This document shows positions 1,943 to 56,216 of a DNA stretch of 64,000 bases, one piece after another. The notes beneath the pieces were generated by a model. The model was given only the letters and a program-made list of their open reading frames with translations. It did no database searches and was not told the DNA's origin. Source of the stretch: Gilvimarinus sp. DA14 (GTDB lineage Bacteria; Pseudomonadota; Gammaproteobacteria; Pseudomonadales; Cellvibrionaceae). Made by a program: the position numbers and the translations under genes. Location of the stretch: positions 1,652,501 to 1,716,500 of the forward strand of contig NZ_CP100350.1 in assembly GCF_024204685.1 (NCBI RefSeq). Reading direction: 5' to 3'. Positions within the stretch are counted from its first letter, which is position 1. Each line of letters opens with the position of its first letter.

Positions 1943-4564
1943 TTACTCAAACATTACGGGAAAGGACGTCTCAGCGATACCATTTGCACCGTTCACGATT
2001 TCCTCACCGCGCTCGGTCAATACCTCGCCCTGCACGTCATCGGCAATGGTTAACGCACTCGTATCGAACCAAGTACTGGCGGTCCAGCCAAATGGCACTA
2101 CATGGTAGCCTGGTTTTTTCGCTGCCAGCATTGAGCCCGAGTCCAGCGCACCCTGAGTAAAATCTACAGCCAAGTCATCTATCGAACCCATGGTACTGAA
2201 ACCCTGCTCGTAGATAGGCTGCAAATCATCCACCACGCTATCACCGATGATTTCAATATCATCCAGCTTGAACTGACCTGCAAGAGTACCGCCGTACTGG
2301 AAGCCAAACATTTGTGGCGACAGAGTGCGTGAGAATCCCTCTGGGTAATCCTCATCCGTAATTTCGAATTGCAGATCATTCCACTCACCATAAGTGATGC
2401 CAGACATATCCACTTCCCCGAAGGGGAAATGTTGCCAACTACCGCTTTGGAAGAAGAACGTCATCCAGAATTCGGAGCCGGAGTACTCTTCTGGCAAAAA
2501 CAAACGAGCTTTCACCGTCAAGTTGCCGGCAAAGTTAATCTCTTGCACCGAGTTCACGTCAGCTTTGTTCACCGCTCCGCCGTCACCAGCCGGCACAGTC
2601 GCCACCAGTTCGCCGTCCACGTTCGATACCTCAACCTGACCGCCATCCCAGCCGGCATTAACAAAGCCTTCAGTGCCGCCGGTAAAAGTGGCTTTGTACT
2701 GAGTATCAGTAACAATTTTAGTTGGTCGTGCCGAGGGGTCTTCGATCACGATAGAGTCGATGAGGACTGACTGTGATTTAGGCAAGCTGATACCGCCCAA
2801 TTGCAAACCAAACGATTGTTTCGTATTAATGCAATTTGTGCCGCTAAAATCTACGTTAAATTTCAGCTCAGACCACTGGCCGGGAACTAGTTGTGCGACG
2901 GGCATTGACACCTGATTCCAAGCTGACCAATCGTCGCAGAACTGCGCAAATGCCTGCCCCCACAACCCGTCACCCGAATACTCCTCAGGCAAAAACATCC
3001 GCACAGTGACGTTTAAGACGCTGCTAAAGTCAATCAGCCCTAAGGTGCTTCCCCCAAGCTGGTAGTTTATCTGCTCACCTGTTGGCAATGCTTGCAAGCT
3101 ACCATCCGCTGTCGTGAAATCGGCACCGTTGCCTCCCCAACCCTCAGAGTCGCCATCAGTATTGAACTCAGCGGTATACATGGGCGGAACACCCGGGAAT
3201 AAATTCAAATTGTCGAACTTAATCTCGCCTTCAGCCAAATCAGATTTACCATTGGCAAGAATTTCTATTCCCACATGGGTGACGGCCGCCTGATCAAACT
3301 CAGTAGCACCATCCAATAAATTAGCCGGATCAATCTCAGCCGGAACATCAAAGCGCAATTTATTCCAGACGTTTTCACGCAGCTCGCGTGCTAATGACAT
3401 GCCCAAACGCAGGCGATTGCCGTTCTCGTCCATCAAATACATCGCAATGCCCGTGGTGCCGTTGGGCGCATAGTTAGAGCTACCGGGAGAGACTCGCATA
3501 AACTCCAGGTAACGACGATCCATAAATACATCCAGCGACGTGGCACCGCTGGTTAAATCCAAAGTTTCGCCAAAGGCGTTTAAATAACCCACGCCATCGT
3601 CACTGCCAACCCAGGGGGTATCCACCACCAGTGCGGTATCGCCCACAGCCTGGGCCATAAACTCAGTTTCATCCACAGGGAAATCGCCAGTTTCAGAACC
3701 GCCAAATGCATTCATAACAAAAGGCACATCTTGCTGCGCAAGCAACGTGTTAGCGGCAATGATTTTGTCCGCGCTGTCCCAACGCTGGCCGTCACCATCG
3801 GCGGCGAAAATTAGATTCTTTTCCGCGTCCGCCGCCAACAGTTCGTCACCACGCCCCACTAAGAAGGCGTTAAAGTCCTGACCGCAGTTAGCGCCATCAA
3901 TCATCAATGGCAGTTTAAAACCCGCTTCACGGAAACGACGAATCAACGCTTTATAAGTATCGATGTACTCTTTGTAGCCAAGACTTGAGGCGTTAAAGAC
4001 ACCCATGGGGCCCCAACCGTCGGCAATATTAATAATCACCCGGCCTTGATAACGATCTTGTGCCAGCACCGAAATCCACTGATCCAACCAAAGTGTGTTT
4101 ACCGCATCGACAATTGCGTCTGAACTTTCCTGACAGTGCAGCGCCGAGCCGTCATCGGTCAGGCTCACAACCGCCACCATATTGTTGTTGGCGATAGTGC
4201 TCAGCGCGCCGTCCAGCTGGTCTTCCGTCACGCTGCTATCAATCATCAAACGCACCGCGTTAGCGCCAGTTGCTGCGATGGGTTCAATAGCCTGAATCAT
4301 TTGCGCCGTGTCTTTGTAATACTCAAGCGTTACCCCGCGCAGAAAAACAGGATTGCCCGCGACATCCAACAAAAACTCATCGGTTGTTGTCATGGTGGGT
4401 TCACCTTCGGGGGGGCGCGGACGATCGGTCGGATCTTCTGTTCCCGCTTCGGGGTACATCATATCCACGTCATTGTCTTCACCCAGCAGGCCATCGCTGC
4501 CACCGCAGGCGGTTAGAGTTAACGCACCGGTCATAACGACCCATGGTAGTAATTTCATCTTCAT
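1943..4564 (-). CDS. Outer-membrane lipoprotein with catalytically dead GH5 (mannanase-like) module and beta-sandwich modules
   Basis: Predicted surface glycan-binding protein. Lipoprotein signal with lipobox LTAC (Cys20), no Asp at +2, so outer-membrane sorting is likely; then an acidic Pro-rich linker (about 21-62). Residues about 63-335 align by eye with GH5 subfamily 8 beta-mannanases (GNPVFLRGV, GANAVRLMI with Arg105, VIINI, LMIDGANCGQD, NLIF). However the acid/base motif NE reads D182-G183 (ADGW), the nucleophile in GEFGG reads Ala286 (NAFGG), and the His and Tyr of the HDxTG and IHMY motifs are also gone. Residues about 336-458, 462-610 and 623-775 look like carbohydrate-binding beta-sandwiches; the latter two share FLPEEYSG. 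The last 90 residues resemble the start of a further copy. It lies 69 bp downstream of a TBDR gene, presumably in one operon. Enzymatic activity is not expected; mannan binding is inference. Confidence 0.8.
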   Translation of the reverse strand: MKMKLLPWVVMTGALTLTACGGSDGLLGEDNDVDMMYPEAGTEDPTDRPRPPEGEPTMTTTDEFLLDVAGNPVFLRGVTLEYYKDTAQMIQAIEPIAATGANAVRLMIDSSVTEDQLDGALSTIANNNMVAVVSLTDDGSALHCQESSDAIVDAVNTLWLDQWISVLAQDRYQGRVIINIADGWGPMGVFNASSLGYKEYIDTYKALIRRFREAGFKLPLMIDGANCGQDFNAFLVGRGDELLAADAEKNLIFAADGDGQRWDSADKIIAANTLLAQQDVPFVMNAFGGSETGDFPVDETEFMAQAVGDTALVVDTPWVGSDDGVGYLNAFGETLDLTSGATSLDVFMDRRYLEFMRVSPGSSNYAPNGTTGIAMYLMDENGNRLRLGMSLARELRENVWNKLRFDVPAEIDPANLLDGATEFDQAAVTHVGIEILANGKSDLAEGEIKFDNLNLFPGVPPMYTAEFNTDGDSEGWGGNGADFTTADGSLQALPTGEQINYQLGGSTLGLIDFSSVLNVTVRMFLPEEYSGDGLWGQAFAQFCDDWSAWNQVSMPVAQLVPGQWSELKFNVDFSGTNCINTKQSFGLQLGGISLPKSQSVLIDSIVIEDPSARPTKIVTDTQYKATFTGGTEGFVNAGWDGGQVEVSNVDGELVATVPAGDGGAVNKADVNSVQEINFAGNLTVKARLFLPEEYSGSEFWMTFFFQSGSWQHFPFGEVDMSGITYGEWNDLQFEITDEDYPEGFSRTLSPQMFGFQYGGTLAGQFKLDDIEIIGDSVVDDLQPIYEQGFSTMGSIDDLAVDFTQGALDSGSMLAAKKPGYHVVPFGWTASTWFDTSALTIADDVQGEVLTERGEEIVNGANGIAETSFPVMFE

Positions 4565-4633: not shown

Positions 4634-7600
4634 TTAAAAGGTCAGAGTAAAGCCCGCCGCGTACCGGCGCTCTTGCACATTGATGCTTTGCAACTGATCT
4701 TCGTACTGGGCGTAGTTTGTGCGATCGGTAGCGGTCAGGTTGGTACCGTTCAAGTACACACTGATATGCTCGTTAATCCAGTAGCTCATAGACACATCCA
4801 AATAGCCTGCTGGCTCGGCCCACGTCGCTAGATTAAGAGGTTCGCCGTTGGCGCTTCTGCCAACTGATTGCACATACTCATCACTACGCCAGTTGTAAGC
4901 GGCGCGAAGATTGAACCCGGCGTTGTCGTACCAGAGAATCAAGTTAGTTTGATGCTCGGAGTTTGAAGGAAGGGGTAAGGTATTACCTTCAAGATCTTTT
5001 TCGTCAGACTCACTCTGCGAATAGGTGTAGTTAAACTCGATACCCGTCGAACTTAAAAAGCTCGGCAAGAACGTGAACGGCTGGCGGTAACCAAACTCAA
5101 CACCATAAAGCGACGAGCCGCTGGCGTTTTCCGTGGTCCACACATTGGCGGTGTTGCCGCGGTCTACGTCATCGCCATCAACAAACGAGCGCTGCTCTTG
5201 AAAGCTTCTAACCGAAGTATCGACATCCATGTAGAAAAGGCCCACACCAAGAATGGCGTTATCGTCGAAATACCATTCGGCGGAGGTGTTATACACATCG
5301 GCAATCCACGGATCGATATTAATATCGCCGTTATCACTACCGCCACCTACACAGGTCACTTCTTCTCCCACCAAGTTACCCGAACTGTCGACGATCAGAA
5401 CACGATCACCATTCTCGTCGGTTTTTTCACACTGGCTGTACCACAGACTCAAGCCCGAGCCGACGTTTTGCAAATCGTTGCGCGAGGTTGTACGCGCCGC
5501 CGCAAAACGCACCACGACATCTTCAGCGGGGAACATGTTCATATTGAACGACGGCAGGTACTGCGTGAACGAGCGCTCTTTGGTTTCAATATCGTACACA
5601 AACGCTAACTGCTGATAGTCAACCGAACCGATAGAGTTAAAAATGTCCAGTACTTCAGGGACGGTATTACGCTCTACCGTGCGGTCCGTTTGCATAACTT
5701 TCAAACCAACGTTACCGCTGTAGGGTATGCCAAACAAACCCTCTTCTGAGCCGAAGTTAAGTTGAGCAAACACCTCAGCCGAAGCTTCTTCAACGTTATA
5801 AGCGTAAGCCGGGTCTTCTACCGTGCGTGTGCCTGGATAGAGCTGGTTCATGAAATCCAGCGGCGAATCCCACGCGGAAGGATCAAGCGAAGACACCCCG
5901 CCAGCAAACCCGGTAAAAGGACCAAAATCGGTAAACACGGACGTATCGGCAGCCGTAAAGCCATTGTTGTACAAGCCGGCGTCAATCAATGCCTGCGGCT
6001 CATCATCGTAGTTAAACAAACGCCAGTCCGGGTAACGCTGCCACACGCGGTTACCTTCATACAGCTGGTTTCGCTTATCAATGGGAATACGTTGATCGTC
6101 AGCGTAGCGCTGTGTAGGCGTTACATAGTAGTACTGCGCATAGTCAGCCTCGCGCACGCCGTAGCGAACACCAAAATCTACAGACTCAAAAAAACCGCCA
6201 TTATCGAACTCAAAATTCGCATCCACTCGGGCAACGTTCAGAACACCCTCGGTGTTATCGCCGGTGGCAATGGATTGATAGCGGCCCAGCAGGTTTGCAT
6301 CGGAAACATCTTTGTCGAACTGGAAAGACGGATAATCACCGGTGTAATCAACCGTGACAGCGTAGGGATCGATCGGGTCTTTACCGGGAATGCCATCAAC
6401 ATCTACCCACTCCCAAGCCGGAGTACCCTGCTGCAACGAGGCATTACGATGACGCTTTTCCGCCTCAGCGTAAATATACCGCGCCGTTACCGTTAAGTTA
6501 TCGTGGTTGGTGTAATCCAGCTGAATATTGGTGTTTAACGCAGCGGTTCTGTTGATGTCATTGGACGAAGTGGTGGTAAAGTCCGGCGCCAAGACATCGG
6601 CAACGCGCAAACTGTGAATGGTCGCGGTTTGCGACTGACCATTTTCATCGACATAAGAGTACTGCCCGCTTTCACTAAACACCGACCCTTCTTCCAGAGC
6701 GTTGAACAAATCCGACTCTGTACCCGGTGTGCCATTGACCTCGTAAGAGCTAACAGCGCTCCTGGCATTAAAGGCGACGCGCACACCGCGATCATACTGC
6801 TCCATCTCAGTGTAAAAGGCGTCACCGCGAAGGCTGAAGTTGTCATTGATTTGCCATTCGATACTGGCCGAACCGCCCTGACGCTCACGGGTGACAAAAC
6901 TGCTAGAAGCACCAAAGGTTTCAGGCACTAAGTACCAGTCGTTGACCAAGTCGCCATCGCCATCCAAATCCAATGGGTCGGTGGGCGTTCCGTTTTGACG
7001 ATCCAGAAAGCCGAAGTTGGCATCCTGAGTCATAGAATAGTTAGCGTTGTAAGACTCTGAGCTAAACAAGCCCATATTGAACGCCAGGTTGTCGTTAAAC
7101 TTGTAACCGAAAAAGCCACTCACGTTGTAATCAGGGTCGCGAGTGCCGGTACTGCCGTCTGCTTTCACCTCGTCTTTCGAGCGGTCACCCATGGAGCCTT
7201 CGGCGCGCAGGTTGGCGGTAACGCCATCTTCCATTGCCAGCGGTGACAGGGTTTTCAAGTCAACCACGCCGGAAATACCGCCGGCCACCATTGAGGCAGA
7301 CTGCGATTTATAAACATCTACACCACTAATCATACCGGCGGGAATGTCCGAGTAGTTAGCCCCGATGCCCGTAATACTCCAGGGGCTTAGGAACTGTTCG
7401 CCATTAAGGGTAGTAAGCACCTGGGGCATACCGCGAATGTTCAGAGAGGTACCCTCGTTCGCCTCGCGGTTAATCTGCACCCCGGTTACCCGCTGCAGAG
7501 AGTCAGTAATGGTTAAATCCGGCAGCTTGCCAATGTCTTCGGCGACGATTGAATCCACGATGCGGTCCGAGTCGCGTTTGATATCAATGGCTTTTGCCTG

Positions 7601-7762
7601 AGACTGACGCACCCCTCGAACAATCACTTCCTCTAAAAGCAGATCTTCTTCCGCCGTGGCGGCGCTGGAGTCTTGGGCATAACTGAACTGGCCTGTCGCG
7701 GCAACGCCTATGGCTAACGCCAGGGCACTCTTGCGCGCGAAAAGCATATGGCTTTTTCTCAT
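4634..7762 (-). CDS. TonB-dependent outer-membrane receptor, carbohydrate-locus type
   Basis: Imports an oligosaccharide or other large ligand through the outer membrane using TonB-ExbBD energy. Signal peptide (about 30 residues, ending FSYAQ), TonB box region LLLEEVIVRGV, then the plug domain (GKLPDLTITDSLQRVTGVQI, LNIRGMPQVLTTLNGEQ) and a 22-strand barrel ending with the aromatic C-terminus AAGFTLTF. At more than 1,000 residues it fits the large Xanthomonas/Caulobacter TBDR class (TIGR01782-like). An upstream ATG at 7771 abuts GAGG directly, so the ATG at 7762, with GAGG nine bases ahead, is the better start. The gene is followed by the pseudo-GH5 lipoprotein, suggesting a receptor plus surface binding protein pair. 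A LacI-type operator lies about 155 bp upstream. The ligand (mannan-derived?) is inferred from the neighbour only. Confidence 0.92.
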   Translation of the reverse strand: MRKSHMLFARKSALALAIGVAATGQFSYAQDSSAATAEEDLLLEEVIVRGVRQSQAKAIDIKRDSDRIVDSIVAEDIGKLPDLTITDSLQRVTGVQINREANEGTSLNIRGMPQVLTTLNGEQFLSPWSITGIGANYSDIPAGMISGVDVYKSQSASMVAGGISGVVDLKTLSPLAMEDGVTANLRAEGSMGDRSKDEVKADGSTGTRDPDYNVSGFFGYKFNDNLAFNMGLFSSESYNANYSMTQDANFGFLDRQNGTPTDPLDLDGDGDLVNDWYLVPETFGASSSFVTRERQGGSASIEWQINDNFSLRGDAFYTEMEQYDRGVRVAFNARSAVSSYEVNGTPGTESDLFNALEEGSVFSESGQYSYVDENGQSQTATIHSLRVADVLAPDFTTTSSNDINRTAALNTNIQLDYTNHDNLTVTARYIYAEAEKRHRNASLQQGTPAWEWVDVDGIPGKDPIDPYAVTVDYTGDYPSFQFDKDVSDANLLGRYQSIATGDNTEGVLNVARVDANFEFDNGGFFESVDFGVRYGVREADYAQYYYVTPTQRYADDQRIPIDKRNQLYEGNRVWQRYPDWRLFNYDDEPQALIDAGLYNNGFTAADTSVFTDFGPFTGFAGGVSSLDPSAWDSPLDFMNQLYPGTRTVEDPAYAYNVEEASAEVFAQLNFGSEEGLFGIPYSGNVGLKVMQTDRTVERNTVPEVLDIFNSIGSVDYQQLAFVYDIETKERSFTQYLPSFNMNMFPAEDVVVRFAAARTTSRNDLQNVGSGLSLWYSQCEKTDENGDRVLIVDSSGNLVGEEVTCVGGGSDNGDINIDPWIADVYNTSAEWYFDDNAILGVGLFYMDVDTSVRSFQEQRSFVDGDDVDRGNTANVWTTENASGSSLYGVEFGYRQPFTFLPSFLSSTGIEFNYTYSQSESDEKDLEGNTLPLPSNSEHQTNLILWYDNAGFNLRAAYNWRSDEYVQSVGRSANGEPLNLATWAEPAGYLDVSMSYWINEHISVYLNGTNLTATDRTNYAQYEDQLQSINVQERRYAAGFTLTF

Positions 7763-7917
7763 CTGGAACATCCTCGTGCGATTTTATTGTTAGTTATCGT
7801 CTACAGGGGTACAGCGCAGCGTGTACCGCTACTGCTATCACCAGCGCCTTAGAAACGCCTGTGCAAATTGTTATTTTCTGCCAAGCGGACACTACCCCTA
7901 AAAATCCGCCACCAAAC

Positions 7918-9878: not shown

Positions 9879-9965
9879 GCCCAGGTGGTGAAATTGGTAG
9901 ACACGCTAGCTTCAGGTGCTAGTGGCCTCACGGCCGTGGAGGTTCAAGTCCTCTCCTGGGCACCA
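9879..9965 (+). tRNA. tRNA-Leu (anticodon CAG)
   Basis: An 87-base class II tRNA. Acceptor arms GCCCAGG (9879-9885) and CCTGGGC pair perfectly and the CCA end is encoded. The D-loop has the A-G-G-type pattern (TGGTGAAATTGGTAGACA), the anticodon loop is TTCAGGT flanked by CTAGC/GCTAG arms, giving CAG, which reads CUG. A long variable arm (TGGCCTCACGGCCGT region) and the T-arm with GTTCAAGTC complete the leucine tRNA. A strong promoter precedes it and a terminator hairpin starts 7 bases after it. Confidence 0.97.
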
Positions 9966-9971
9966 TCTTCG

Positions 9972-10006
9972 AAAAAGGCTGAATCCTCAGGGTTCGGCCT
10001 TTTTTA
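9972..10006 (+). terminator. Rho-independent terminator after tRNA-Leu
   Basis: Hairpin with arms AAAAAGGCTGAATCC and GGTTCGGCCTTTTTT around a TCAG loop, ending in a T-run. It is part of repeat copy one. Confidence 0.85.
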
Positions 10007-10122
10007 TTGGCTGGACATACTTGTTACACAACGTCGAGGACTTTCGTCCTTCGTCGCTCCCGGCATCCTGCCTCCCGCGACACTTGCGCATCCCTGCGCA
10101 TCGTCCTGGGCACCATATTCGG

Positions 10123-10156
10123 AAAAAGGCTGAATCCTCTGGGTTCAGCCTTTTTT
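10123..10156 (+). terminator. Second terminator copy in the tRNA-tail repeat
   Basis: Same hairpin as after the tRNA: arms AAAAAGGCTGAATCC and GGTTCAGCCTTTTTT. The right arm reads TTCAGCC, restoring pairing where copy one has a G-T wobble. Its preservation suggests the repeat arose by recent duplication or that the hairpin is kept. Confidence 0.75.
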
Positions 10157-10249
10157 ATTGCCTGGAGTTGCGCGTTACACGACGTCGAGGACTTTCGTCC
10201 TTCGTCGCTCCCGGCATCCTGTCTCCCCGCGAGGTTTGTAGGTCCTGTT

Positions 10250-10351
10250 CGGTCGCTTTCAGCATCCTGCTTGTCGCGACACTTGTACATCCTTGTACAT
10301 CGGTCGCTTTCAGCATCCTGCTTATCGCGACACTTGTACATCCTTGTACAT
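10250..10351. repeat. Two tandem copies of a 51-bp repeat
   Basis: Copies at 10250-10300 and 10301-10351 differ at one base (CTTGTCG versus CTTATCG). Each contains TTTCAGCATCCTGCTT and the duplicated TGTACA word in CACTTGTACATCCTTGTACA. A diverged relative is in the tail of the 150-bp repeat (10053-10102, GCGCA replacing TGTACA). Being 51 bp, the unit keeps all reading frames, so antisense frames show a repeated 17-residue peptide; I do not regard it as a proven gene. Confidence 0.85.
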
Positions 10352-10757
10352 CGCCCAGGTGCATATAGGCTTCTCGAAAGCTCCTGCCAGGGCACGTATT
10401 CAATTTTGAATCAGGATATGACGCTTATATGTGAGCGTTGATTTGCATTTGGTACTGATTTAGAACTTGACCTGCGAGATTTCGAAAATGCCTGCTAACG
10501 TCTTGATGGCAGGCCGCTCTCGATTTCTTGAACAATTGACTTTGCCGCCCAATGCGTTAATTTACTCAAATCACGACACAGGTATCAGTATGCTTATTAT
10601 TCAGATCAACCGCTTTTTAATGTGGAGACTTGCTCCGATCTTCCCCGCCTAACCGGGCCGCCGTCAGGCGTCCCGTAGTCTCTATTACTTTTCATTTCGT
10701 GATTTTCGTTGCTACCCCGGCAAATGACTTGGCTGGGATTTCTTTATTGGAGTACGT
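10352..10757. other. Non-coding gap with possible tRNA-Leu relic
   Basis: No convincing gene. At 10353-10394 a GCCCAGGTG word identical to the tRNA-Leu 5' end and a CTCCTG...GGGCAC...TATTC pattern like its 3' end lie about 30 bases apart, possibly the eroded remains of a third copy. The rest, up to the rnk ribosome-binding site (TTGGAGTACGT), shows nothing I can assign. Confidence 0.4.
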
Positions 10758-19649: not shown

Positions 19650-22600
19650 ATGAAAGTTAGCCATGTACTCAGCAAAAAACGTCTTGCAGCCTGCGTATCT
19701 GCCATTGCGGTAGGGGGTACTGCCCTGCCCGCACTGGCCCAACTGGACAGCCCTGCGCTTGAAGAAGTAGTGGTAACCGGTGTGCGCGCCGCCCAGGAAA
19801 ATTCGGTAAACATTAAACGCGACGCCGACTCGGTGGTGGATGCGATTTCCGCCGAAGATATCGGCAAATTACCCGATGTCACCATCACCGACTCACTGCA
19901 GCGCATCAGCGGTGTGCAAATCCGCCGCAGCGCCGGTGAAGGCACCGCCCTGAACATTCGCGGTCTGCCCCAAGTGTTGACCACTTTAAACGGTGAGTCT
20001 TACCTGGGCGCGAACTCGCTGACCACCGTACAGCCCAACTACAGCGACATTCCCTCGCAGTTATTCTCCGGTGCCGAAGTGGCCAAATCGCAAACGGCTA
20101 GCATGAACGCCGGCGGCATTACCGGTATTGTCGATCTGAACACCTATCGTCCGTTTGATTTCGATGAGGGCTTTACCATTTCCGGCGCCGTTAACGGCAC
20201 CTATGGCTTAGAAACCGAAGAGACAGATCCCTCGGCCAACCTGCTGCTGAACTGGAACAGCGAGCGCATTGGCGTAATGGCAGCCGTGAGCCACCAAGAA
20301 GCGACTCTCGCCAACTATTACTCGGGTGTTATGGGAGACGGCGGCTGGACCGGTTTTACCAACGAGACCGACTACGGCTGGGTAAGCCCTGATAACGCTC
20401 AGTTTGCCGACCGCTACAGCGACGGCGGTGTCGACATTAACAATGACGGAGATCTTGACGATCGCTACTGGGCTTACGTAGGCCACACCGCCTACAACCG
20501 TCAAACCGAACGCGAGCGCACCGGTGCCAACCTGGCGGTTCAGGTAGACCTCGGCGCGGGCTTTGAGCTGATCGCCGAAGCACTGGTGACCGACCTGGAA
20601 GACAATGACTTTCAGGCAGGTATCGCCAACTCTGACAAGTGGCAGAGCTGGAGCTGGTACGACGCCACCCAATCTACCGACCATGGCAGCGTCAATACCG
20701 TGCAGGAATACACCACCTCTGGCCGCCGCATTAAGTCTTATTCTTCTGTCCAGGCGCAAACCGCCGAGTCGCAGAATTACAACCTGGAACTGAACTACGA
20801 CAACGGCGGCGAATTTACCGGCTCATTCCGCTACATTCACGGCGAAGCCGAGCAAGAGCGCCTTAACAGCTACACCGATGTGGATCTGGCCAACGGCAGC
20901 CAGTGGGGTGTTGAGTGTCAGTACTACCCCGACGGCACCGCCGGTGAGCAGGGTGACTGCGCCGACGGCCAACTGCAAACCAACCCTGGGGGCTACCTGG
21001 GCTACCCGCAGCTGACTATTGATTACACCGGTGACGACCCGCGCTGGAGCGGCTTTGATAACAACGCCAACCTCAGCATTAACGGTGAATCACTGGGCGA
21101 GGCGCGCACTATTGCCGACTACCTGGGCGATGTAAACAGCTACGCGCTTGGTGCTTTTGCCAGTGAGAATAACTTCTCTCGTGAAGGCGAGCTGGACGTA
21201 GGGCGTTTTGACGGCGAGTATCGCTTTGACACCAACTTCCTTACCTCGGTGGAGTTTGGCGTGCGCCTGAGCGAACGCAGCGTAGACAATTTCGAATTTG
21301 ATTTACTGTCTCCGGTAAACGGCTGCGACGTTAAATGGAAAGCCACAGACGTAGTGCTCGATGGCGGCGGCGTTGAGGGTGCCTGTGTTGCGGGCGATGG
21401 AGAAAACTTCTACACCGCAGGCATACCTACGCCTCTGGCCGATCTGAATCCGATTCAAATCAGCGACTTTGGCAGTGCATCTGGCATTCCCGCAATTTGG
21501 GGCGTAGACCCTCGCGCAATGGCTGATGTAGAGGCCTATCACGAAGCCTTGTACCCAGGCACCTATCGCTCTATTTTCCCGGGCCGCTCCTACGAGGTTG
21601 AGCTGGAAGAGCTGAGCTACTACGCCAAAGCCAATTTTGAAACCGGCATTATGAGCGGTAACTTTGGCCTGCGCGCGGTAGATTCGGACCTGACCGTGGT
21701 CCAAAACCAAGTGGGCGCTGCCCAGGCTTACGGGGCCGCCGCGGTAGATGCTGGCGATATCACCACCGAGCGTTCACTGGATTACCTGCTGCCTTCTTTG
21801 AACCTGCGCTTTGACTTAAGCGAAGACTTGATTCTGCGAGCCTCTTACGCACAAACCATGGCGCCGCTGGATCTGGCGCAGTGGGGCGGCGGCTTAGCCC
21901 CCAACTATGTAATCGACAGCAACCCAGAAAGCGACACCTACAACCAGTTTATCGTCAGCGGCGGTAACGCCAACGGCAACCCCGAGCTGGACCCCTGGGA
22001 GGCCACCAACTACGACTTGTCGGTGGAGTACTACATGGGTGGTGCCAGCAGTGTATCTGTGGGTTGGTTCTACATTGATGTCGAGAGCTTTATCGAAAGC
22101 GGTAGCGTACAAATGGAGCTGCCCGATCAGGATGGCGTTGTGCGCCGTAGCGTACCCATTTCTACCAGCATTCAAGGCGAAGGCGGCGTGTTGAAGGGTG
22201 TTGAGCTGGCAGCCAAGCTGGCTTTTGACGACTTCCTCGACTTACCCATGCTAAGCGGCTTTGGTATGGACGCCAACTACACCTACTCGCCCAGTGAGTC
22301 GGGCAACCAGGGTATGGACGGTCAGGAGCTGCCTTTCCAGGACAACTCAGAAGACGTTGTTAACCTGGTCGGTTGGTATGAAAACGGCCCGCTGCAGGCG
22401 CGTATCGCCTACAACTATCGCAGCGAGCGCGTGGTTGGCTTTAACCAAACCTGGGGCGAAGGCACCTTGTGGCAAGAGCCCACCGCGTATGTGGATGCGT
22501 CAGTCAGCTACGACATCAACGACTATGTCAGCGTGTTCTTGAACGCCTCTAACATTACCGAAGAGAAAGAGACTTACTACCTGGAGTACGAAGACCAGTT

Positions 22601-22658
22601 CGCCTGGCAGAACGAGTACGAAGCTCGCTACACCATGGGCGTAAGAGCTACTTTCTAA
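19650..22658 (+). CDS. TonB-dependent outer-membrane receptor, solitary, carbohydrate type
   Basis: Outer-membrane importer of 1,002 residues. The signal peptide ends ALPALAQ; the TonB-box region is ALEEVVVTGVRAAQ; the plug has GKLPDVTITDSLQRISGVQI and LNIRGLPQVLTTLNGES; the last strand ends YTMGVRATF with a C-terminal Phe. The plug is strikingly like that of the TBDR at 4634-7762 (same GKLPD, TITDSLQR, LPQVLTTLNGE), so the two are paralogues of the Xanthomonas/Caulobacter TBDR class. GGAGA lies nine bases before the ATG. No binding lipoprotein or enzyme follows: a strong terminator comes about 75 bp downstream, so it is monocistronic. Two LacI-type operators upstream suggest sugar control. 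Ligand unknown. Confidence 0.92.
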   Translation: MKVSHVLSKKRLAACVSAIAVGGTALPALAQLDSPALEEVVVTGVRAAQENSVNIKRDADSVVDAISAEDIGKLPDVTITDSLQRISGVQIRRSAGEGTALNIRGLPQVLTTLNGESYLGANSLTTVQPNYSDIPSQLFSGAEVAKSQTASMNAGGITGIVDLNTYRPFDFDEGFTISGAVNGTYGLETEETDPSANLLLNWNSERIGVMAAVSHQEATLANYYSGVMGDGGWTGFTNETDYGWVSPDNAQFADRYSDGGVDINNDGDLDDRYWAYVGHTAYNRQTERERTGANLAVQVDLGAGFELIAEALVTDLEDNDFQAGIANSDKWQSWSWYDATQSTDHGSVNTVQEYTTSGRRIKSYSSVQAQTAESQNYNLELNYDNGGEFTGSFRYIHGEAEQERLNSYTDVDLANGSQWGVECQYYPDGTAGEQGDCADGQLQTNPGGYLGYPQLTIDYTGDDPRWSGFDNNANLSINGESLGEARTIADYLGDVNSYALGAFASENNFSREGELDVGRFDGEYRFDTNFLTSVEFGVRLSERSVDNFEFDLLSPVNGCDVKWKATDVVLDGGGVEGACVAGDGENFYTAGIPTPLADLNPIQISDFGSASGIPAIWGVDPRAMADVEAYHEALYPGTYRSIFPGRSYEVELEELSYYAKANFETGIMSGNFGLRAVDSDLTVVQNQVGAAQAYGAAAVDAGDITTERSLDYLLPSLNLRFDLSEDLILRASYAQTMAPLDLAQWGGGLAPNYVIDSNPESDTYNQFIVSGGNANGNPELDPWEATNYDLSVEYYMGGASSVSVGWFYIDVESFIESGSVQMELPDQDGVVRRSVPISTSIQGEGGVLKGVELAAKLAFDDFLDLPMLSGFGMDANYTYSPSESGNQGMDGQELPFQDNSEDVVNLVGWYENGPLQARIAYNYRSERVVGFNQTWGEGTLWQEPTAYVDASVSYDINDYVSVFLNASNITEEKETYYLEYEDQFAWQNEYEARYTMGVRATF

Positions 22659-55001: not shown

Positions 55002-56153
55002 TCAGCGCCACCCTAACGCCTTATTGATTGTGTTGAGCAGCTCATTATTGTAATCGGAGGTATATTGCCAAAACATAACCCCACCCAAGTCCTGCTGACG
55101 GATGTACTTTACCTTGGCGGCGATGGACTGCGGATCATCGTAACTGACAAAAGTTTGTTCTTTTTCGCTCCACAACCAAGGGGCTTGGGCTACCTCGTCC
55201 CAATAGCGCCGATAACCCTTTTTACCGATGACATTGGGGCGTAAATTATCGTAACGGGCACTGCCAAAACTGGCCTCGCCAGCATCCGCTGATTGATTTA
55301 AACCAGAGTTTTTCGGGCTAACATTCACCCAAGTGCGACCGTAAAATGCCACCCCTACCACCAATTTGTGTGCGGGCACCCCAGCGGCCATATGGTTTTT
55401 AACTGCAGCATCGGCGGATTGGCCAGAAGCATCATCTGGGTGTGAATAGAGCGCGGTATGATGGCCAGTGACACCATCCTCGCGAGGGAAGTTATAGTCG
55501 TAAGCCATGATATTGATGTAGTCCAAATACTTCTGCCAATTACCTATATCACTCTTTGCCAGGTAATCTGGAAAACCGCCGCTGGCGATTGTAATTAATA
55601 AGGGGCGCTCTAACTCCTGCGCCAAAGAATCAAAGGCGGTGCGCAAACCCTTTAACACCAACGTAAAGTTGCGACCATCTTCCGGCCTGTGAGTATTGCC
55701 CGCGCCGACCAGGCCCGGGTACTCCCAGTCGATATCAATGCCGTCCAGCTGATGGCGGCGTACAAACTCTACCGCGCTATCAATAAATACCTGACGCGAC
55801 TGCTCCGTTAGAGCCATATCCGAAAAACCGCCGGACCAGGTCCAGCCGCCTACCGATGAGAGTATTTTTAACTTAGGGTTACGCTCTTTTAAAGTCTGCA
55901 ATAAGCGGTAGTTTTGATCGTCAAAATCAAACCCATTTACAATTCGCCCGCTCTCAATATTGGAAAAAGCGTAGTTAATATGGGTGAGTTTTTCCGCGGC
56001 AATGCTGTCGGGCTTGAGTGGTTTATCCGGACTAAACACATAGCCAATAATCGCGGGCTCTGTCGTGTGCGGGTGATGCTCAGCATGAGCATTACAAACA
56101 ATGGCTTGAGCGGCAAACACTAGGCCGCTGAACCAGGCAAATAGGACTTTCAT
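55002..56153 (-). CDS. GH18 chitinase
   Basis: Secreted glycoside hydrolase family 18 chitinase, 383 residues. From the ATG at 56153 (GGAG eight bases ahead) a signal peptide (FAWFSGLVFAAQAIVCNAHA) is followed directly by the catalytic barrel: SSVGGWTWSGGFSDM, the catalytic DGIDIDWEYPG with Glu, INIMAYDYNFP, and VGVAFYGRTW. The late GVMFWQYTSD is the typical final strand. No chitin-binding module is present, so it may act on soluble chitin oligosaccharides or in the periplasm. It is not adjacent to either TBDR gene. Confidence 0.95.
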   Translation of the reverse strand: MKVLFAWFSGLVFAAQAIVCNAHAEHHPHTTEPAIIGYVFSPDKPLKPDSIAAEKLTHINYAFSNIESGRIVNGFDFDDQNYRLLQTLKERNPKLKILSSVGGWTWSGGFSDMALTEQSRQVFIDSAVEFVRRHQLDGIDIDWEYPGLVGAGNTHRPEDGRNFTLVLKGLRTAFDSLAQELERPLLITIASGGFPDYLAKSDIGNWQKYLDYINIMAYDYNFPREDGVTGHHTALYSHPDDASGQSADAAVKNHMAAGVPAHKLVVGVAFYGRTWVNVSPKNSGLNQSADAGEASFGSARYDNLRPNVIGKKGYRRYWDEVAQAPWLWSEKEQTFVSYDDPQSIAAKVKYIRQQDLGGVMFWQYTSDYNNELLNTINKALGWR

Positions 56154-56216
56154 TGGATGTCTCCACAATTATGTGGCCCCCGGCTTAGCTCCGGGGGCGT
56201 GAGATCATCTATTGGC

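Follow-up and report, generated by a model that had tools for sequence, protein, structure and literature searches.

The question raised by this locus is why a lipoprotein built on the framework of a mannan-degrading enzyme, with most of its signature catalytic residues replaced, should be kept beside a TonB-dependent receptor. The locus lies in a 64,000-nucleotide stretch of Gilvimarinus sp. DA14 (Gammaproteobacteria, Cellvibrionaceae; contig NZ_CP100350.1, positions 1,652,501 to 1,716,500), referred to here as the window; the host genome comprises 3,956,837 bases. The lipoprotein gene (1943..4564) encodes 873 amino acids from an ATG start; window coordinates are used throughout, and features are on the minus strand unless stated otherwise. 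The open reading frame is considered real rather than a chance one, because 32 relatives with 29-81% identity were found. The predicted product combines a split barrel, similar to glycoside hydrolase (GH) family 5 subfamily 8 (GH5_8), with three inserted beta-sandwiches. The interpretation that we favor, and consider probable, is that the protein descends from a lipid-anchored GH5_8 mannanase and captures glycans at the cell surface for the receptor, and that the two genes form an outer-membrane glycan-uptake unit.

An earlier interpretation of this DNA, made from the sequence alone (the sequence-only reading), had assigned the protein to the GH5_8 mannanase framework. This assignment was borne out: a phmmer search against PDB matched the mannanase structure 1wky (E 4e-16), and a profile of 31 family members matched the same structure at E 1.4e-38. 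We take 1wky, 2whl, and 1bqc to be structures of GH5 subfamily 8 beta-mannanases. The kinship spans the whole barrel, with profile positions 54-306 aligned to 1wky 2-244 and a C-terminal segment, 816-869, aligned to 1wky 246-299 (i-E 4e-9). Because the two halves map contiguously onto 1wky, an insert of about 500 residues, as judged from the profile alignment, separates helix 7 from strand 8 and divides the eight-stranded barrel. Strands 1-7 and helix 7 form the first part (residues 61-308; 3641..4384), and strand 8 and helix 8 the second (residues 816-873; 1946..2119); strand 8 is located at about residues 825-832, past the insert and close to the C-terminus. Two barrel cysteines, Cys144 (4133-4135) and Cys227 (3884-3886), do not vary in the family alignment (32 of 32 and 33 of 33 covering rows, respectively) and may form a disulfide specific to this lipoprotein family.

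The GH5 signature is presumed here to consist of eight residues, including the positions of Arg105 and Trp832. Six of the eight are replaced in the window protein: the His of HDxTG by Thr136 (4157..4159), the Asn-Glu pair with the acid/base by Asp182-Gly183 (4016..4021), the His and Tyr of IHMY by Asp256 and Asp258 (3791..3799), and the nucleophile Glu by Ala286 (3707..3709). The replacement of both glutamates and the loss of the His and Tyr had been noted before, and alignment to 1wky and to the relatives confirmed them. The claim that every catalytic position was lost proved too strong, since the GH5 subsite arginine, Arg105 (4250..4252; conserved in 31 of 32 covering rows and replaced by Lys in L054), and the strand-8 Trp832 (32 of 32 covering rows) are retained. 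The substituted positions align column for column with relatives that retain the ANEW and EFGG motifs, so no sign of a moved Glu was seen; relocation of a catalytic Glu elsewhere in the barrel was set aside, as the members with both Glu align in the same manner. Sequencing error as the source of D182, G183, and A286 was likewise set aside, the same residues being found in three relatives (L045, L046, and L047). The window protein is thus predicted to lack catalytic activity.

The insert was resolved into three putative beta-sandwiches: sandwich 1 (residues ~310-457; 3194..3637), sandwich 2 (residues ~462-612; 2729..3181), and sandwich 3 (residues ~618-778; 2231..2713). They are mutually homologous by hhalign (E 3e-39 for sandwiches 2 and 3, 9e-14 for 1 and 3, 1e-12 for 1 and 2), and none of the three matched barrel part 1 by the same method. 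Their assignment as beta-sandwiches is based on this kinship and on matches of relatives to SGBP_B_XBD and Mann_GBD_bact. SGBP_B_XBD matched six of the 31 members (best E 2e-11), the window protein not being one of them (E up to 0.1); Mann_GBD_bact was detected in three of 31 (E up to 0.1). When projected onto the window protein, SGBP_B_XBD covers residues 341-455 of sandwich 1 (from L072, over the cut-off) and residues 279-457 (from L058, just under the cut-off), as well as residues 653-773 of sandwich 3 (from L073, over the cut-off), where a Mann_GBD_bact match in L058, also over the cut-off, falls on residues 663-717. Weak matches were obtained for sandwich 2 to CBM_17_28 (in L073, under the cut-off) and by profile to SGBP-B 7k44 (E 0.55), and for sandwich 3 by profile to 1pmh (E 0.035). 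The C-terminal domain of 1wky was considered as kin of sandwich 2, and the match (7.6 bits) was judged too weak. The SusD family was absent among the 11 families matched in the 31 members (E up to 0.1), and it was not matched in the window protein (Pfam, up to E 1). Extra beta-sandwiches had been proposed previously, and their presence is supported; that they lie within the barrel, after helix 7 and before strand 8, had been missed. An enzyme barrel with intercalated sandwiches of binding type is the arrangement of SusG, and carbohydrate binding by the sandwiches of the window protein remains putative.

The N-terminus carries an outer-membrane lipoprotein signal, as read from the alignment by eye. 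A signal peptide and lipobox (LTAC, Cys20, Gly at +2; residues 1-20; 4505..4564) are followed in the translation by an acidic, proline-rich tether (residues 21-60; 4385..4504). Cys20 is present in all 32 rows covering that position, and the +2 residue is Gly in 31 of them, the exception being Asp in L060. The lipoprotein +2 sorting rule is the basis for the predicted outer-membrane destination.

The receptor gene (4634..7771; 1045 amino acids; TIGR01782, E 6e-155) ends 69 bp before the lipoprotein start. A receptor directly upstream and on the same strand was found in the window and in all 31 relatives with upstream DNA (L053, which starts at a contig edge, is outside this count), in agreement with the proposed linkage of the lipoprotein to a TonB-dependent receptor. 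The receptor tree was built with 32 rows and four control receptors. Groups of ten, eleven, and six members, a group of three (L056, L057, and L059), and the window clade of four are common to the receptor and lipoprotein trees. One genome (G130) holds two receptor-lipoprotein pairs, which sort into different clades with both halves of each pair together. Based on the shared clades and the matching pairs of this genome, the receptor and lipoprotein are, as far as trees can tell, largely one inherited unit.

Several further receptor genes were observed. The paired receptor of L060 (14700-17745, genome G140) is in two frames, due to assembly error or decay. L052 (15497-18514) and L078 (15548-18547) each have a second receptor, 45-46% identical to that of the window, upstream of the paired one and in the same orientation; these two form their own branch in the receptor tree. 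The window contains another TonB-dependent receptor gene at 19650-22658 on the plus strand, about 32% identical to the first, with a DUF599 gene next to it on the downstream side.

When 144 genomes of the window's bacterial family were searched, 33 full-length or near-full lipoprotein loci were identified in 32 of them, spread over eight genera. Two of these loci are incomplete, L053 lacking the N-terminus at a contig edge and L059 having a damaged C-terminus; the trees exclude the former, and an alignment (A2) excludes both. Order-level (293 genomes) and class-level (369 genomes) searches at E up to 1e-40 gave matches in four genomes and one genome, respectively, all in the same bacterial family; as at most three and two candidates per genome were scored, absence beyond the family is provisional. 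Scans of viral contigs yielded seven loci at six places encoding GH5-like proteins.

Catalytic loss in this family is graded. Both glutamates are present in seven of the 33 sequences (window and 32 relatives), the nucleophile only in 13, and neither in 13, so that one or both are lost in 26. Of the 33 sequences, 20 have Gly at the acid/base position, and the nucleophile column of the 13 members without either Glu contains Ala (four), Gly (five), Ser (three), or Asp (one). The His of HDxTG is missing even in all seven members with both Glu. A search for homologues with the same substitutions next to receptor genes had been suggested; receptor-linked homologues with widespread loss were found, but the exact set D182, G183, and A286 is limited to the window, L045, L046, and L047.

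On the lipoprotein tree (32 rows), the members that retain the acid/base are L058 and a supported clade of six. Those that have lost it make up one clade of ten, another of fourteen, and the long-branched L060. Within the clade of fourteen the nucleophile column is occupied by Ala, Gly, Ser, or Asp, and by Glu in L049. Parsimony on the unrooted tree gave two changes for acid/base presence and two for the nucleophile. If Glu is taken as ancestral, as GH5 implies, three losses of the acid/base would be the simplest reading; regain may also have occurred. The nucleophile position looks like one released from constraint rather than the target of one selected change, since the column varies among members without either Glu; a single selected substitution at this position was set aside for that reason. 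It had been proposed that the anchor and sandwiches were gained together with catalytic loss. This was not the case, as the seven members with both Glu also have them, as well as the receptor partner; all three features probably preceded the loss.

The protein has not been evolving freely. When the window gene was compared with its three nearest relatives, nonsynonymous divergence (dN) ranged over 0.05-0.31 per segment (0.04-0.32 for all six pairs), and synonymous divergence (dS) in this set was above 1 or saturated. Low dN at such dS indicates that the lipoprotein is under constraint, with ratios of the dN/dS type being indicative only because of the saturation. The suggestion in the sequence-only reading that the protein is not decaying is thus supported by the low dN in the window's clade. 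The ratio of barrel distance to mean sandwich distance averaged 0.72 for members with both Glu (20 pairs), 0.81 for those with the nucleophile only (66 pairs), and 0.91 for those with neither (78 pairs); the ranges of the three classes overlap, and the pairs are not independent. For the window's clade alone the ratio was 0.64-1.81. These values fit an eased constraint on the barrel after catalytic loss, and are not proof of it.

Clues to the ligand were found in the surroundings of the relatives, where selected neighbors were scanned in stretches of up to 20 kb. Mannan genes were detected near five of 32 relative loci, which is a lower bound given that scope. In L069 the pair is located between ilvH and ilvY, as in G002, and after it come genes for GH26 and an alpha-galactosidase (Melibiase_2). 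Near L054 are genes for GH130, an epimerase, an SSF transporter, and a LacI regulator; L061 and L050 each have an epimerase gene and, by clustering, a GH130 gene nearby; and L058 has an alpha-galactosidase gene. The GH26, GH130, epimerase, and alpha-galactosidase families are presumably those of mannan use. Elsewhere, the host genome has two GH26 genes, one GH130 gene, and a GH5 paralogue carrying both Glu motifs.

The pair comes and goes, like nutritional loci. A full-length lipoprotein copy is present in three of eight genomes of the genus. In G001 and G004 ilvH adjoins ilvY and the pair is absent, in G003 the HAD gene abuts ilvY, and in G006 a 1.3-kb gap at the ilv site gave no match. A 49-codon remnant, corresponding to codons 825-873 of the lipoprotein, lies directly after the end of ilvH in G005 (L063, 3403-3549), with no receptor match left at that site. 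A small exported protein, glutathione peroxidase-like by eye, is encoded upstream of the receptor in 12 loci (L048, L049, L050, L051, L052, L054, L055, L056, L059, L068, L070, and L074), and eight loci have a member of a cluster that in L050 is represented by a tryptophan-halogenase-family protein. A repeated stretch at about 9900-10450 of the window appears in open reading frames of several frames, with YKCRDKQDAESDR occurring twice in one frame; it is probably a non-coding repeat element. The window also contains a GH18 family gene (55002-56168, minus strand; PF00704, E 1e-84), far from the pair.

The family probably descends from a lipid-anchored GH5_8 endo-mannanase whose barrel held three sandwiches of carbohydrate-binding type and whose gene lay beside that of a TonB-dependent receptor. 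Such an arrangement would be akin to SusG, or to other enzymes with an inserted carbohydrate-binding module (CBM), beside SusCD. On the window's branch the barrel would have lost its catalytic residues and been retained as a binding scaffold; from the lost glutamates and the kinship of the sandwiches, glycan binding without catalysis is proposed. A chain of the beta-mannan type would be held at the cell surface by the cleft, the sandwiches, or both. Other enzymes, possibly the GH26, GH130, and GH5 proteins encoded elsewhere in the genome, would release oligosaccharides, which would be passed to the receptor and imported in a TonB-driven manner. Surface exposure, glycan binding, mannan as the ligand, inactivity, and physical contact with the receptor are suppositions of this scheme, whose computed basis is the split barrel, the lost glutamates, the lipobox, the pairing and common history with the receptor, and the low dN. 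It is conceivable, and is offered tentatively, that an anchored mannanase became a transporter's substrate receptor more than once in one bacterial family, giving a counterpart of SusD and of surface glycan-binding proteins (SGBPs), and that today's members preserve every stage of the change (both Glu retained, only the nucleophile, or none).

A number of observations weigh against a capture protein that serves the receptor and binds mannan. The two trees differ in that L056, L057, and L059 do not join the group of eleven, in the position of L051 within the eleven, and in the order within the ten, and the receptor tree gives less than full support to the groups of six and eleven. With 13 relatives retaining the nucleophile and seven both Glu, the family is not uniformly non-catalytic. 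No match to the window lipoprotein was found in Pfam up to E 1; the same was true of NCBIfam. An AlphaFold2 model made from two sequences only (window and L003) had a mean predicted local distance difference test (pLDDT) score of 36 and is unusable as evidence. Mannan genes were seen in only five of 32 relative loci among the selected neighbors, and the window's own neighbors are ilvC, ilvY, a HAD-family gene, and unrelated genes, with no mannan genes among them. Other loci have a GH18 chitinase (L048, L055 by clustering, and L057) or GH10 xylanases (L073 and L077) nearby; because of these five, the ligand may vary, or the neighbors may be bystanders.

Three rival explanations bear on the same data. 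The protein could still be an enzyme, with residual, altered, or different chemistry performed by other pocket residues. The retention of Arg105 and Trp832, the slow change of the barrel at the protein level, and the presence of both Glu in seven relatives would agree with this; six of eight GH5 signature residues are gone, however, and a nucleophile column that is Ala, Gly, Ser, or Asp in the 13 members with neither Glu is unlike a re-purposed site, which makes continued catalysis quite improbable. Functionless decay of a pseudo-enzyme en route to loss is harder still to reconcile with the uninterrupted frames of the window gene and of its three nearest relatives, low dN in each segment against saturated dS, unchanged Cys20, Cys144, Cys227, and Trp832 in every covering row, and a receptor retained beside the lipoprotein. 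We regard it as very improbable, despite the full-length copy being restricted to three of eight genomes of the genus, the four genomes without a copy at the ilv site, the remnant beside ilvH in G005, and the barrel distance exceeding the mean sandwich distance in four of six pairs of the window's clade.

The third possibility is a surface adhesin for plant or algal material, with the neighboring receptor importing something unrelated. A tethered lipoprotein with binding-type sandwiches would suit such a role, but pairing over eight genera, trees largely matching those of the receptor, and mannan catabolic genes in several loci argue for uptake, and adhesion is considered unlikely. A glycan-capture partner of the receptor is the preferred reading.

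Comparison with known systems indicates what is shared and what is particular. The window protein resembles the GH5_8 beta-mannanases (1wky, 2whl, and 1bqc) in its barrel framework by profile, its strand-8 Trp, and its strand-2 Arg. It differs from them in the loss of six of eight signature residues, in the sandwiches between helix 7 and strand 8, and in being a receptor-paired lipoprotein. GH18-type lectins are non-catalytic glycosidase barrels that bind glycans and are likewise an enzyme fold turned binder, although not of GH5; we know of no non-catalytic glycosidase barrel described as a lipid-anchored partner of a TonB receptor. To our knowledge, polysaccharide capture by TonB-dependent receptors outside Bacteroidota, without SusD, is poorly understood. 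Cellvibrio is kin of Gilvimarinus. The xyloglucan locus of Cellvibrio japonicus, as described in the accessible part of the source, encodes three glycosidases and a TonB-dependent receptor, and is contrasted there with a B. ovatus locus holding two surface carbohydrate-binding proteins (PMC4285296). It resembles the window pair as a receptor-linked polysaccharide locus, and differs in that no such surface lipoprotein is named in that part of the paper (PMC4285296). In S. degradans one lipobox mannanase is listed among lipoproteins in the portion of the work available (PMC2386152).

The closest architectural parallels are found in Bacteroidota. According to excerpts of the respective papers, SusG/CBM58 and Xyn10C-like GH10/CBM4 are surface endo-enzymes with a CBM within the barrel (PMC7848910), and the internal CBM of BcWH2_GH26/CBM112 is discussed by its authors as an adaptation to an outer-membrane complex (PMC13357471). 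As far as these excerpts go, such enzymes share with the window family a surface endo-glycanase domain interrupted by binding-type sandwiches and loci with outer-membrane transporters; they are described as active and have SusD-type partners. The window family, in contrast, is GH5_8 and gammaproteobacterial, has another insertion point and no SusD domain, and has lost Glu in 26 of 33 members. The 'CBM inside barrel' design of Bacteroidota surface enzymes would thereby be extended to GH5_8 and to another phylum. The ingredients are known singly (dead enzymes as binders, CBMs inside barrels, SGBPs). Text searches of an open-access collection, which lacks most subscription papers, turned up no description of their combination, with graded loss, in a gammaproteobacterial receptor pair. 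Because members keeping and lacking Glu coexist in one family of receptor-partner lipoproteins, the evolution of an enzyme into a binder, and its partnering with a receptor, are directly testable. In function the nearest counterparts would be the SGBPs and SusD, which capture glycan in Bacteroidota utilisomes according to the accessible text (PMC7618045). The window family may share with them the role proposed here, and SGBP_B_XBD matches were obtained in six of 31 members; it differs in having no SusD domain, an enzyme barrel as its base, and a receptor of the TIGR01782 TonB-Xanth-Caul type. If the repeated conversion of enzyme to receptor is true, Gammaproteobacteria would own a home-made counterpart of SusD and the SGBPs.

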